Made by a program: the position numbers and the translations under genes. This document shows positions 34,667 to 54,632 of a stretch of 64,000 bases of DNA, piece after piece (the stretch's first letter is position 1; each line of letters starts with the position of its first letter). Below the pieces are notes generated by a model. The model worked only from the letters and a program-made list of their open reading frames with translations, was not told where the DNA came from and did no database searches. The stretch comes from an uncultured Flavobacteriales bacterium (GTDB lineage Bacteria > Bacteroidota > Bacteroidia > Flavobacteriales_G > Salibacteraceae): NCBI GenBank assembly GCA_913020435.1, contig CAJVZZ010000001.1, positions 1 to 64,000 of the forward strand, read 5' to 3'.

Positions 34667-34879
34667 CTATTTCTTACAGGCTCCTTCAGTATAGTCAGTT
34701 ATACTGTTGCAATTTGCGCTTCCGCGATTACTATATGTGTTTCCATCACAACCACATACTGGAGCATACTCTAATGTAGTTATACAATTCAGTTTTTCTT
34801 TGGCTGTGCAGTTGTCTTTTTTGCAACAAATTAAAGTGGCAAATAATAGTGTTCCTATTGTAATTGAGAGGTTTTTCAT
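34667..34879 (-). CDS. Kazal-type domain lipoprotein
   Basis: A 70-residue lipoprotein (hydrophobic 6-17, lipobox ending at C18 or C19). The mature part carries YAPVCGCDGNTYSNRGSANC (38-57), the core of a Kazal serine-protease-inhibitor domain, with other cysteines at 24, 32 and 68. The usual cysteine after TYxN is replaced (NRG), so the disulfide pattern differs from the textbook one. It could guard the cell surface against proteases. No protease gene is adjacent. Confidence 0.8.
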   Translation of the reverse strand: MKNLSITIGTLLFATLICCKKDNCTAKEKLNCITTLEYAPVCGCDGNTYSNRGSANCNSITDYTEGACKK

Positions 34880-51597: not shown

Positions 51598-51702
<105 letters not shown>

Positions 51703-51707
51703 ATTAC

Positions 51708-51962
51708 ATGAATTTATTTGTCGTTTATACATTAAAGTCAAATCTTAACGATAAGCGATATATCGGTTTTACCAGCAACTTGATAAACCGATTTCACTCA
51801 CACAATACATTTGGAACAAAAGGTTGGACAATTAATTCTCGTCTATGGAGAGTAATTTACGTTGAGTTTTTTGAGTCCAAGCAAGAAGCTATGAAGAGAA
51901 AACAGTTTTTAAAATCAGGCCAAGGCAGGGCGTGGCTAAAGTTGAACGTAAAAGATTACTAG
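51708..51962 (+). CDS. small GIY-YIG nuclease-domain protein
   Basis: An 84-residue protein that is almost only a GIY-YIG domain: VYTLKSNLNDKRYIGFTSNLINRFHSHN holds the two tyrosines (VY and YIG) and the catalytic arginine, and the last part has VIYVEFFESKQEAMKRKQ with the metal-binding glutamate. This is the UPF0213-like short form, common in Bacteroidetes near tRNA genes. It starts 6 nt after the tRNA-fMet terminator and ends 23 nt before a copy of the tRNA 3' end. Its natural substrate is unknown; DNA nicking within a small mobile unit is the inference. Confidence 0.88.
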   Translation: MNLFVVYTLKSNLNDKRYIGFTSNLINRFHSHNTFGTKGWTINSRLWRVIYVEFFESKQEAMKRKQFLKSGQGRAWLKLNVKDY

Positions 51963-51985
51963 TAGGGATCTTATTCGCCAGAGAC

Positions 51986-52046
51986 GGACGCAGTTTCGAG
52001 TCCAGTCCCCGCAACTAGAAAAGCCGCTTTTGGAGCGGCTTTTTTT
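51986..52046 (+). repeat. tRNA-fMet 3'-end remnant with terminator, right copy
   Basis: It matches 51642-51702 in 57 of 61 positions. The T-stem pairing is partly lost (GCAGT/CCAGT) and no 5' tRNA half precedes it, so it is not a functional tRNA. The terminator hairpin 52019-52046 is intact apart from one G-U pair and would end the GIY-YIG transcript. Confidence 0.88.
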
Positions 52047-52116
52047 GAATAAATAGTCAAGTTATAAATTATTAATGATTTGATTTGAGTAGATAATGGT
52101 TTTCCAAATAATTGTA

Positions 52117-52126
52117 TAGTATTGTA
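52117..52126 (+). promoter_or_regulatory. shared upstream motif TAnnATTGTA, copy 1
   Basis: TAGTATTGTA, with its G at 52124, 31 nt before the ATG of the first mini-lipoprotein. It differs from TAnnTTTG at the fifth base in all four copies. Confidence 0.5.
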
Positions 52127-52154
52127 TTTTATTAATTGTTTCAAACTTATTTTT

Positions 52155-52376
52155 ATGAAAAAAATGCTAATGATTGCAGCAGCAGGACTAATGATTGCTG
52201 GAATGTCTTCTTGTAAAAAAGATTATACATGTACTTGTACGGCTGCAGGTGTAACAATTTTTGGAGTAACGACTCCAGATGTATCATCTTCTACTACAAT
52301 TAAAGATACGAAAAGTAACGCTAAATCAACTTGCGAAGGTGCTTCAATGGAAGGTGTTACTTGTGTTATCGACTAG
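52155..52376 (+). CDS. cysteine-rich mini-lipoprotein, type A, copy 1
   Basis: A 73-residue lipoprotein. The signal peptide MKKMLMIAAAGLMIAGMSSC gives a lipidated Cys at 20, followed by KKDYTCTC. The mature chain has four more cysteines (a CxC pair and two near the end: STCEGAS, GVTCVID), enough for two disulfides. Start chosen at 52155, not the upstream in-frame ATG at 52122, because the signal peptide begins there. It belongs to a four-member local family (52588, 53011, 54353). I know no assigned function. Confidence 0.75.
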   Translation: MKKMLMIAAAGLMIAGMSSCKKDYTCTCTAAGVTIFGVTTPDVSSSTTIKDTKSNAKSTCEGASMEGVTCVID

Positions 52377-52400
52377 TTCACTAGAATTATATTATAAATT

Positions 52401-52426
52401 AAAAAGCCGCATTCTGTGGCTTTTTT
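52401..52426 (+). terminator. terminator after mini-lipoprotein copy 1
   Basis: The AAAAGCCGCA/TGTGGCTTTT stem includes one G-U pair and is followed by T residues. Confidence 0.8.
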
Positions 52427-52549
52427 ATTACCCAAATTTTCAGAAGATAGAATTGTCAGAGACAATTTTTTATACTAAGCTCAGGGATTTTAAAGGAATA
52501 AGTTTCATGAATTATTCATGTTTTTAAACTGAATAATGCGGTTTTCTTT

Positions 52550-52559
52550 TATTATTGTA
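52550..52559 (+). promoter_or_regulatory. shared upstream motif TAnnATTGTA, copy 2
   Basis: TATTATTGTA, with its G 31 nt before the ATG, the same spacing as copy 1. Confidence 0.5.
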
Positions 52560-52587
52560 TTCTCTTGTAACTTTTTAAATTTATTGT

Positions 52588-52824
52588 ATGAAAAAGATAT
52601 TAATGATTGTTGCTACAGTGCTCATAATAGCGGGACTGTCTTCTTGTAAAAAAGATTACGAATGTTGTTATGTAGATGCTAGTGGAACTAAATTAGATGC
52701 AACTTCTGGGTTTGGTTGTGCTACTGGAAATATGAGCAAAAGTGATGCTGAAGATTTAGATGCAAGAATGACTGCAGTTGCTGCCGCTGAATTCAATGGT
52801 ACCGCTGCTTGTGAGAAAAAATAA
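52588..52824 (+). CDS. cysteine-rich mini-lipoprotein, type B, copy 1
   Basis: A 78-residue lipoprotein. MKKILMIVATVLIIAGLSSC ends at the lipidated Cys 20, then KKDYECCYVDASG. The mature part has four further cysteines (CC, FGCATG, AACEKK) and a helix-like segment MSKSDAEDLDARMTAV. It is closest to the gene at 53011: both share YECCY, a mid-chain GxxC, MSxxxxxDLxxRM and a C-terminal CE. Monocistronic, with own terminator. Function unknown. Confidence 0.78.
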   Translation: MKKILMIVATVLIIAGLSSCKKDYECCYVDASGTKLDATSGFGCATGNMSKSDAEDLDARMTAVAAAEFNGTAACEKK

Positions 52825-52841
52825 TAATAGTATTCTTTGTT

Positions 52842-52878
52842 AAAGCCGTGTTCAATAAAATGAATACGGCTTTTTTTT
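52842..52878 (+). terminator. terminator after mini-lipoprotein type B copy 1
   Basis: A 13-bp stem, AAAGCCGTGTTCA with TGAATACGGCTTT (one G-U pair), then an uninterrupted T run. Confidence 0.88.
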
Positions 52879-52981
52879 GCTGTTTTTTGACAAAAAGGTT
52901 ACAATTTGTGCTGTTCCAATCACCAATAAATAGGATTTCAGAAATTTCATAAATTTAAGAAAGTGAATTCTTCAAATCATG

Positions 52982-52991
52982 TAATATTGTA
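52982..52991 (+). promoter_or_regulatory. shared upstream motif TAnnATTGTA, copy 3
   Basis: TAATATTGTA, with its G 22 nt before the ATG at 53011. Confidence 0.5.
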
Positions 52992-53010
52992 AGAAGTTTA
53001 AAAAACGAAA

Positions 53011-53253
53011 ATGAACAAAAATAAATTTCTACTACTAGCCTTCGCACTGACTTTAGGGCTATCTTCTTGCAAAAAAAATTACGAATGTTGTTACTTCAAT
53101 TCTGAAGGTGAAAAAATAGAAGAGGGTGATTTTATTTGTGGCGAAAAAAAAATGAGTGAGAACGAGGTTGTAGATTTAGAAGTAAGGATGAATGAAGCTT
53201 CTGCGGAATGGACTGGTTCCGGGAAATGTGAAACAATTACATTAGTTAAATAG
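53011..53253 (+). CDS. cysteine-rich mini-lipoprotein, type B, copy 2
   Basis: An 80-residue lipoprotein. MNKNKFLLLAFALTLGLSSC ends at lipidated Cys 20, then KKNYECCYFNSEG. Four further cysteines (CC, FICGEK, GKCETI), a charged helix KKMSENEVVDLEVRMNEA, then WTGSGKCE. It pairs with 52588 as the B subtype. 96 nt separate it from the MauE-thioredoxin gene on the same strand; only a weak hairpin lies between, so read-through is possible. Confidence 0.78.
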   Translation: MNKNKFLLLAFALTLGLSSCKKNYECCYFNSEGEKIEEGDFICGEKKMSENEVVDLEVRMNEASAEWTGSGKCETITLVK

Positions 53254-53349
53254 ATTTTCACGTGAGAGTGCAAAGTCCTTTTTGTCGAAAGGGTATTTTG
53301 AAACCTTTGTTGTACCAACCGAAGCAACACATTTGGTAAAACATTGAGC

Positions 53350-54279
53350 ATGACTATCGATAAAAAATTTGTTTTAAGGTATTTTCTTCAAGTTCTTCTT
53401 TCCATTGTATTTTTAGTGTCGGGTTGGTTAAAACTATCACCGATAGAGCCATTTGAATTAACGCTCGTAGATACCGGTATAATTCCATGGTCGTTAGCGC
53501 CATACACCGCTCGATTGCTCATAGCTTTGGAAGTATTTATAGGATTAGCACTTCTATTTAACACTAAGCATACAAGGTTTTTTTTAAAATGTGGTCTTTA
53601 TTTAACGCTATTTTTTTGTATCTATCTTTTGCTTTTGTGGTGGTTTAGAGGTAACGATATTAACTGCGGTTGTTTTGGTACCCAATTCAGTATGACTCCA
53701 ATTGAGTCACTCTTAAAAAATGCACTTCTTATAATCGCAGTAATGGGAGCATTGAGGTTATCTGTTCCAACAAAAAGAAATTTTAAATGGGTTTATCTCT
53801 TTGGAGGGTTAGTAATTATCGTAATGCCCTTCATACTAAATCCGCCAGATGGATATTTTTCTTCTGTTGATGAAACCAATTATCCATATGAGTTAAGAAC
53901 GGAATTGATTCCAGATACTATCAAAATGCATATCCCTTTTAATATTGAAAAAGGAGAATACCTGATTGCTTTTCTAAGTATAACCTGTCCTCATTGTAAG
54001 GTAGGTGCTCAAAAACTGTCAGTTGCAGATAAGAAACATGAACTTCCACGAATACACGCGTTTTTTATTGGAGACGAAGATAAAATGGATGAGTTTCAGT
54101 TTGAATCGAATAGTAATTTACCCTATACAATGTATCACGATCAGAGCTTTTTTAAATTTACTAAAGGACTTCTTCCTACATTTTTACTGATAAAAGATGG
54201 ACAAGTTCTCAAGCGTTGGTCGGGCTCTGAATTCTCCTATGATGAAATTTCTAGGATTTCAAGCTATATAGATGAGTAA
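53350..54279 (+). CDS. MauE/DoxX-like redox membrane protein fused to thioredoxin domain
   Basis: A 309-residue inner-membrane protein. Helices at about 10-27, 50-70, 78-98, 122-137 and 147-163 form a MauE/DoxX-like module with NCGCFG (C106, C108) on the loop after helix 3. A periplasmic thioredoxin-like domain (about 190-309) has SITCPHCKVGA (C213, C216) and LLPTFLLIKDG with the cis-proline. The pair of dithiol motifs suggests electron relay from a membrane site to the periplasm, as in VKOR-DsbA fusions. The ATG at 53350 is preferred over the in-frame TTG at 53344. It lies between two cysteine-rich lipoprotein genes. Confidence 0.8.
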   Translation: MTIDKKFVLRYFLQVLLSIVFLVSGWLKLSPIEPFELTLVDTGIIPWSLAPYTARLLIALEVFIGLALLFNTKHTRFFLKCGLYLTLFFCIYLLLLWWFRGNDINCGCFGTQFSMTPIESLLKNALLIIAVMGALRLSVPTKRNFKWVYLFGGLVIIVMPFILNPPDGYFSSVDETNYPYELRTELIPDTIKMHIPFNIEKGEYLIAFLSITCPHCKVGAQKLSVADKKHELPRIHAFFIGDEDKMDEFQFESNSNLPYTMYHDQSFFKFTKGLLPTFLLIKDGQVLKRWSGSEFSYDEISRISSYIDE

Positions 54280-54321
54280 GGCATTCTTTTGATTTATGAT
54301 AAGCTAAAACTAAATTTCCTT

Positions 54322-54331
54322 TATTATTGTA
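54322..54331 (+). promoter_or_regulatory. shared upstream motif TAnnATTGTA, copy 4
   Basis: TATTATTGTA, identical to copy 2, with its G 24 nt before the ATG at 54353. Confidence 0.5.
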
Positions 54332-54352
54332 ATAAATAGAAAAATAACGAAA

Positions 54353-54583
54353 ATGAAAAAATTAATATTTGTATTAGCTACGGGAGCATTATTTATAGGA
54401 ATGTCTTCTTGTACAAAAGATTATGATTGTACATGTGTTACAACTGATCCAATTGTAGGATCTACTACTAACGTTAGCACAGTGAAAGGAACAAAGAAAA
54501 CGTCTGAAACACTTTGTGATGCTGGTGATATTACCATAGGATCAGGAGATGCTGAAGTTAAAACTGAGTGTTCTATTAATTAG
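54353..54583 (+). CDS. cysteine-rich mini-lipoprotein, type A, copy 2
   Basis: A 76-residue lipoprotein. MKKLIFVLATGALFIGMSSC ends at lipidated Cys 20, then TKDYDCTCVTTDP. It has the CxC pair of type A (compare 52155) and two late cysteines (ETLCDAG, KTECSIN), four in all after the lipidated one. A Ser/Thr-rich middle (STTNVSTVKGTKKTS) parallels the SSSTTIKDTKSNAKS of its sister. Function unknown. Confidence 0.78.
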   Translation: MKKLIFVLATGALFIGMSSCTKDYDCTCVTTDPIVGSTTNVSTVKGTKKTSETLCDAGDITIGSGDAEVKTECSIN

Positions 54584-54599
54584 AGAACTAAAAATTATT

Positions 54600-54632
54600 T
54601 AAAAAAACTCTTGAATTTCAAGAGTTTTTTTT
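54600..54632. terminator. bidirectional terminator between mini-lipoprotein and HHH gene
   Basis: An A-rich arm with AACTCTTGA pairs with TCAAGAGTT across a 3-base loop. It has A and T tracts on the two sides and lies between convergent genes. Confidence 0.85.

Follow-up and report, generated by a model that had tools for sequence, protein, structure and literature searches.

What do four small cysteine-rich lipoproteins have to do with the membrane protein and thioredoxin domain encoded among them? The question is raised by a locus at positions 52117-54583 of a 64,000-nucleotide stretch of DNA (the window) from an uncultured Flavobacteriales bacterium, whose genome is that of a 2.95 Mb Bacteroidota member and is 98% complete. 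An original prediction took this locus for a possible periplasmic thiol-redox island, in which the lipoproteins would be substrates, clients or redox carriers of a fusion between a MauE-type membrane domain and a thioredoxin domain. Our analyses support a functional tie of the lipoproteins to the fusion, through a conserved neighbourhood, co-occurrence at the level of genomes and invariant cysteines. It also appears somewhat probable that the fusion is an oxidase resembling MauE and MauD, dedicated to folding small lipoprotein clients with two disulfides each.

The five genes of the locus

The open reading frame (ORF) list places four lipoprotein genes and the fusion gene on the same strand:

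52155..52376, + strand: type A mini-lipoprotein A1, 73 aa, mature CKKDYTCTC...; ORF with lipobox and four further cysteines
52588..52824, + strand: type B mini-lipoprotein B1, 78 aa, CKKDYECCY...; ORF with lipobox, in type B alignment A6
53011..53253, + strand: type B mini-lipoprotein B2, 80 aa, CKKNYECCY...; ORF with lipobox, in alignment A6
53344..54279, + strand: MauE-thioredoxin fusion, 311 aa (309 from the ATG at 53350); identified by PF07291, an AlphaFold2 (AF2) model and Foldseek
53662..53679, + strand: NCGCFG motif of the MauE domain (C106, C108), in a predicted periplasmic loop between transmembrane helices TM3 and TM4
53986..53997, + strand: CPHC active-site motif of the thioredoxin domain (C213, C216), from alignments A11 and A5
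54353..54583, + strand: type A mini-lipoprotein A2, 76 aa, CTKDYDCTC...; ORF with lipobox

When compared with a sister genome, all five genes gave dN/dS values of 0.12-0.36, a sign of purifying selection, and they are therefore real genes. The A1 ortholog is 88% identical with a dN/dS of 0.20, that of A2 is 97% identical, and B2 has a dN/dS of 0.12. The same five-gene arrangement is found in all four genomes of the window genus, and the nearest named relatives at the fusion locus are Flavobacteriales UBA6770 and metagenome-assembled genomes of Crocinitomicaceae.

The lipoproteins were called by pattern, and each of A1, B1, B2 and A2 has a signal peptide and a lipobox of the form G[ML]SS-C ending in the lipidated cysteine. 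ORFs and lipoboxes thus agree with the earlier description of four lipoproteins of 73-80 residues with the mature start C-[KT]-K-[DN]-Y-x-C and four further cysteines each. Their division into two pairs also stands, type A having CxC and type B having CC followed by Tyr. Type B is no separate component, but a variant of type A at the level of the genus; it matches the type A profile with 98% probability, partly through the signal peptide. The proposed interval encloses all the genes, but 52117 itself is the start of a promoter-like element and not of a gene.

Lipoproteins and fusion are linked across Bacteroidota

We surveyed 60 relatives for lipoprotein and fusion matches. Type A, type B and fusion matches adjoin one another in these genomes; at E <= 1e-4, 29 of the 56 lipoprotein matches lie <=3 kb from a fusion, and linkage occurs in 17 of the 31 fusion-bearing relatives, against an expectation of ~0.2% per locus, which greatly exceeds chance. 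A lipobox search was then applied to 80 named fusion loci on genome contigs from Flavobacteriales, Chitinophagales, Cytophagales, Sphingobacteriales and unplaced Bacteroidota, and cysteine-rich mini-lipoproteins were present at 58 of them (the script counted 59, from which L162, a spurious ORF on the opposite strand, was removed). Conservation of the neighbourhood, which the original prediction proposed to check, is seen across Bacteroidota. At these loci there are one to four tandem lipoprotein copies, the nearest usually 50-180 bp from the fusion; 109 of the 112 lipoprotein ORFs share its strand and 102 of these 109 are upstream. Non-lipid cysteines number four in 100 of the ORFs, six in six and two in five. 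The flanking genes vary by clade, being Era and Der in the window genus and others in other genera, so that the pairing is not a single frozen chromosomal block.

Co-occurrence was also seen in 148 genomes across the phylum, where the fusion was found in seven and the type A lipoprotein in three, all within those seven (Fisher p 6.6e-5, or 0.0014 without the window's own genome). One genome, G076, has five lipoprotein matches, none of them near its single fusion, and such unlinked co-occurrence argues for a functional tie beyond gene order. A chance neighbourhood, or a passive hot spot, could appeal to the solo lipoproteins and solo fusions that do occur. However, the 58 linked loci keep strand and spacing constant in varied flanking contexts, and together with the unlinked pair in G076 this leaves such an origin with next to no probability.

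The linkage has not been static. In a tree of the fusions, linked and unlinked loci are interspersed, with 13 changes against a mean of 21 in shuffles, and therefore the linkage has changed repeatedly, the details being unsure given several long branches. A relaxed search for missed cysteine-rich ORFs at the unlinked fusion loci found none that were convincing, and solo lipoproteins occur elsewhere within fusion-bearing genomes too. The pairing is strong, yet not obligatory.

A redox protein with two conserved cysteine pairs

The fusion matches the MauE family (PF07291) with an E-value of 2.5e-22 and 80 bits, against a cut-off of 27; 59 of 59 homologs match the family too. In its AF2 model (predicted local distance difference test score, pLDDT, 90.9) a thioredoxin fold comes after five long hydrophobic helices, and the best Foldseek match is ResA (E 3.7e-5). 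The membrane protein with NCGCFG and a CPHC thioredoxin domain was correctly recognized. In alignment A11 (n=59) C106, C108, C213 and C216 are the only conserved cysteines. The features of a thioredoxin-fold oxidoreductase are in place, with the CxxC motif and a proline at the cis-Pro position (C213, C216 and Pro276, each in 59 of 59), while His215 of CPHC is kept in 54 of 59. The NCGCFG pair is likewise found in 59 of 59, a count to be read with caution, given the partial use of a CGC-containing pattern in gathering the loci of A11; alignment A5, gathered without that pattern, has CxxC in 28 of 28 and CGC in 24 of 28. These results support the fusion as a redox protein.

Positive loops (71-76 and 138-145) on the inside and an acidic loop (30-49) on the outside suggest an orientation in which the CGC loop (101-116) and the thioredoxin domain are both predicted to be periplasmic. 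No conserved inner-face cysteine, as a reductant relay of the DsbD/CcdA type would need, was found in alignment A11. Five residues in or beside the membrane helices (K28, R55, E61, K123 and N124) are invariant in the same alignment and, speculatively, would suit a quinone site.

The membrane module is not that of the known disulfide-generating enzymes. The fusion gave no match to DsbB (PF02600) or to VKOR (PF07884), and is thus neither a DsbB protein nor a VKOR-thioredoxin fusion; neither family was found in the window genome, and among the 60 relatives VKOR occurs in two and DsbB in one. The N-terminal MauE-type domain is shared with the BT_3928 family (NF045576), against which the fusion scores 49 bits over residues 12-139 only, far from the 250-bit cut-off, and of which the genome holds a true member (at L229). 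A second MauE protein in the same genome (L228:3862-4575, contig C42) is fused to an N-terminal heavy-metal-associated domain, which suggests a use of the MauE module in metal transport.

The lack of DsbB and VKOR here, and their rarity in relatives, would also suit a general oxidase that serves the whole periplasm and for which the lipoproteins are one abundant client among many, and the solo lipoproteins elsewhere in the genome must be served in trans. But since the fusion is present in just seven of 148 genomes, the phylum does not commonly rely on it as its oxidase, and the linkage of the fusion is specific to these lipoproteins. We consider a general role quite unlikely.

Cysteines of the lipoproteins vary in pairs

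Neither Pfam nor NCBIfam gave anything above noise for the lipoproteins. In 65 of 65 mature type A sequences (alignment A10, A1 numbering) the sole invariant positions are C1, K3, C7, C9, C41 and C51, while the others vary strongly; all four non-lipid cysteines are thus conserved in homologues. Among 190 distinct mature lipoproteins, the count of non-lipid cysteines is even in 188, after correction of ten of the 12 apparent odd cases in which the lipid cysteine had been miscalled (CSTCYEC type). The two truly odd ones (L216:4326-4613 and L217:4863-5039) are both from genomes without a detected fusion, an association (Fisher p 0.007) that is post hoc and uses a hand-set denominator; it hints at a constraint that may have relaxed once the enzyme was lost. 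The refuting case named earlier, of scattered lipoproteins with variable cysteines, was mostly not observed, type A cysteines being invariant and counts even, but solo lipoproteins do exist.

Variation between the subfamilies is also paired. C9 and the helix cysteine are missing together in the CTY, two-cysteine, type B CCY and CSTCYEC variants, C7 and the C-terminal cysteine are retained in variants without C9, and six-cysteine type A forms gain their cysteines two at a time. This is the pattern that structural disulfides would give.

In L106-L117 and L121, which make up one genus of the same family, the fusion locus also holds a six-cysteine lipoprotein family (A7), and the CSTCYEC lipoproteins (family A8) are found a few kb off, beside a glycosyltransferase. 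This glycosyltransferase may be BshA, of bacillithiol synthesis.

Using the type A alignment, AF2 confidently predicted (pLDDT 89.5) a beta-beta-alpha-beta domain in which strand 1 carries C7 and C9, the helix C41 and the final strand C51. Foldseek found no match to this model in the PDB at E 0.001, and the type A profile had no match among PDB sequences. The lipoproteins are compact and unannotated as a family, and for their predicted fold the PDB offers no confident match.

A minimal surface-export signal (LES) of the form C-X-K-(D/E)2 after the lipid cysteine has been described (PMC5080379). Type A lipoproteins have Lys at +3 in 65 of 65 sequences, the window proteins Asp or Asn at +4, and +5 is usually Tyr or Arg, so that the second acidic residue is absent and the signal only half matched.

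These conservation data bear on what the lipoproteins do. A redox carrier or electron donor of the fusion, whose exposed CxC (or CC) would cycle and take electrons on to other proteins of the envelope, is conceivable given the CxC beside the membrane anchor, the several paralogs per locus and the small size. However, a carrier needs one active pair and here four cysteines are equally invariant; moreover, most other positions are free to vary, leaving no conserved partner surface beyond K3, the only conserved position other than cysteine in the 65 sequences. This makes a carrier very unlikely. Of the roles first offered for the lipoproteins, that of structural disulfide clients agrees best with the equal conservation of all four cysteines and with their variation in two pairs, and the carrier option fits less well.

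Proposed mechanism and the evidence against it

In the mechanism that we propose, the lipoproteins would be exported by Sec, lipidated on their first cysteine and reach the periplasm with all four thiols still reduced. The CPHC thioredoxin domain would oxidize them to two disulfides, which in type A would probably join C7 to the cysteine of the C-terminal strand and C9 to that of the helix, and in type B the second disulfide would join C8 to a loop cysteine. From the reduced CPHC, electrons would move to the CGC cysteines of the MauE domain, which face the same side of the membrane, and from there to a membrane pool, possibly quinone, as happens with DsbB and VKOR and their DsbA and thioredoxin partners. 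The folded lipoproteins may then be sorted to their final membrane. We infer the oxidizing direction, the quinone acceptor, the exact cysteine pairing and the sorting; an oxidase is favoured because of the topology, the lack of conserved inner-face cysteines, the DsbA-like CxHC motif and the paired cysteines of the lipoproteins.

Several observations weigh against a dedicated oxidase. By sequence profiles and structure the thioredoxin fold is nearest to ResA and TlpA, many of which reduce. In some divergent fusions (L115, L118, L119 and L122) the CGC pair is missing while the thioredoxin CxxC is kept, and at L115, L118 and L122 cysteine-rich lipoproteins are still nearby, so that there the thioredoxin domain must use another partner. 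At 22 of the 80 fusion loci no cysteine-rich lipoprotein is found nearby, and within one family four genomes have the fusion but none of these lipoproteins near it. Conversely, type A lipoproteins occur without a detected fusion in G024, G047 and G043, where therefore another oxidant must serve.

The kinship with ResA and TlpA, which prepare thiols, suits a reverse direction in which the fusion keeps the lipoprotein thiols reduced, or shuffles them, for binding of a metal, for example Cu(I) or Zn. The MauE protein with a heavy-metal-associated domain in the same genome points the same way, and so do bufferin clusters, which join small cysteine-rich exported peptides, some lipidated, with DoxX (PMC12452194). 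However, no conserved inner-face cysteine is available to carry cytoplasmic electrons, the lipoproteins have no His- or Met-rich or other metal-site pattern beyond their cysteines, these cysteines vary in pairs and not as one site, the genome has no MNIO enzyme, and the CxHC motif of the family is DsbA-like. We judge a thiol-reducing role unlikely.

Promoters and neighbouring elements

Promoter-like elements and terminator-like hairpins were found around the lipoprotein genes:

52117..52126, + strand: TAnnATTGTA promoter-like element, before A1
52550..52559, + strand: TAnnATTGTA promoter-like element, before B1
52842..52873, + strand: terminator-like hairpin, after B1
52982..52991, + strand: TAnnATTGTA promoter-like element, before B2
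54322..54331, + strand: TAnnATTGTA promoter-like element, before A2
54601..54631, scored on the - strand: terminator-like hairpin, after A2 and before a convergent gene

The Bacteroidetes -7 promoter box is TAnnTTTG, which TAnnATTGTA resembles. There are only seven TAnnATTGTA sites on both strands of the window, and the element ends 19 to 28 bases 5' of the start codon of all four lipoprotein genes. Across loci, 97 of 168 lipoproteins have TAnn[AT]TTG <=70 bases before them, against 13.6 in shuffles, and so do 15 of 81 fusions, against 9.1. The simplest reading of these patterns would be that lipoprotein is produced in excess and that the fusion comes mainly from read-through, as with clients and their catalyst.

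Upstream of the locus, a GIY-YIG ORF (51708-51962; PF01541, E 9.1e-12) lies within 51598-52048, flanked by a tRNA-Met with a terminator and by a second tRNA 3' end with a terminator (~51990-52048). In the sister genome L094 there is a single tRNA 3' end, and all that is left of the ORF is a remnant of its start, while L095 has a related ORF start; the ORF with its duplicated tRNA end looks like a small tRNA-targeting element. Elsewhere in the window, a small lipoprotein at 34667-34879 (- strand) has six non-lipid cysteines and a weak match, below cut-off, to Kazal-type inhibitors (E 0.0063); it is unrelated to the finding.

Comparison with known systems

A close parallel is the mau operon of Paracoccus, which also combines a MauE membrane domain, a MauD partner and a small cysteine-rich exported client. 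MauD is thioredoxin-like. In Paracoccus MauE and MauD are separate, whereas the present protein has membrane and thioredoxin modules in a single chain, and the mau client is unrelated to the mini-lipoproteins, which are often multi-copy. By reading, with no profile applied, we recognized no methylamine dehydrogenase structural gene among the ORFs at the locus, which is thus not a MauE-MauD system of that kind. That MauE assists in disulfide formation in the methylamine dehydrogenase beta-subunit has been a matter of speculation (summarised in PMC7794033). The same work describes candidate ribosomally synthesized and post-translationally modified peptide (RiPP) clusters of Streptomyces, found with decRiPPter, in which MauE stands beside a precursor with at least 8 cysteines, one family also having MauD, and proposes that these mauE/mauD clusters modify the precursor (PMC7794033). 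The logic of MauE, thioredoxin and a small cysteine-rich exported client is the same in the mau and Streptomyces clusters as here, but the Streptomyces RiPPs are predicted only, and here the partners are Bacteroidota lipoproteins with 4 (2 or 6) cysteines.

DsbB-DsbA and VKOR-thioredoxin share with the fusion a membrane helical module, a thioredoxin fold and two periplasmic cysteine pairs, and DsbA has the same CPHC motif; the membrane module differs, being MauE with CGC.

Clusters for bufferins and oxazolins, which contain DoxX/HvfX and an MNIO enzyme, likewise place small cysteine-rich exported proteins beside a DoxX-family membrane protein, and ~16% of the Buf2 group of bufferins are lipidated (PMC12452194). 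Their repeated EGKCG motif is absent from the lipoproteins here. Maturation of the bufferin/MNIO RiPP type was rejected, because such clusters need an MNIO enzyme and the window genome has no match to PF05114; a RiPP-lipoprotein known from Bacteroidota is also MNIO-dependent (PMC12636315). The fusion and its lipoproteins matched nothing described in the sources searched, and no published description of this gene set was found in the open-access literature searched. The earlier statement that no described system has this composition holds for those libraries and papers, although close analogues exist in the mau operons, the MauE/MauD RiPP clusters (PMC7794033) and the bufferins (PMC12452194). 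What is new is the fused enzyme with this lipoprotein family; MauE beside cysteine-rich clients has precedents. The NVEALA peptides, also weighed as an analogue, are named in none of the open-access papers searched.

Significance

The genomes of Bacteroidota with neither DsbB nor VKOR do not make plain how disulfides are formed in the envelope, and the locus supplies a specific candidate enzyme along with the proteins that are probably its clients. Tentatively, the fusion may represent a client-specific enzyme class, a third membrane disulfide generator beside DsbB and VKOR, that would serve a new fold family of mini-lipoproteins stabilized by disulfides, in Bacteroidota lacking both. With enzyme and clients in hand, a two-component assay could directly test the role of MauE, on which there has so far been only speculation in the mau system.

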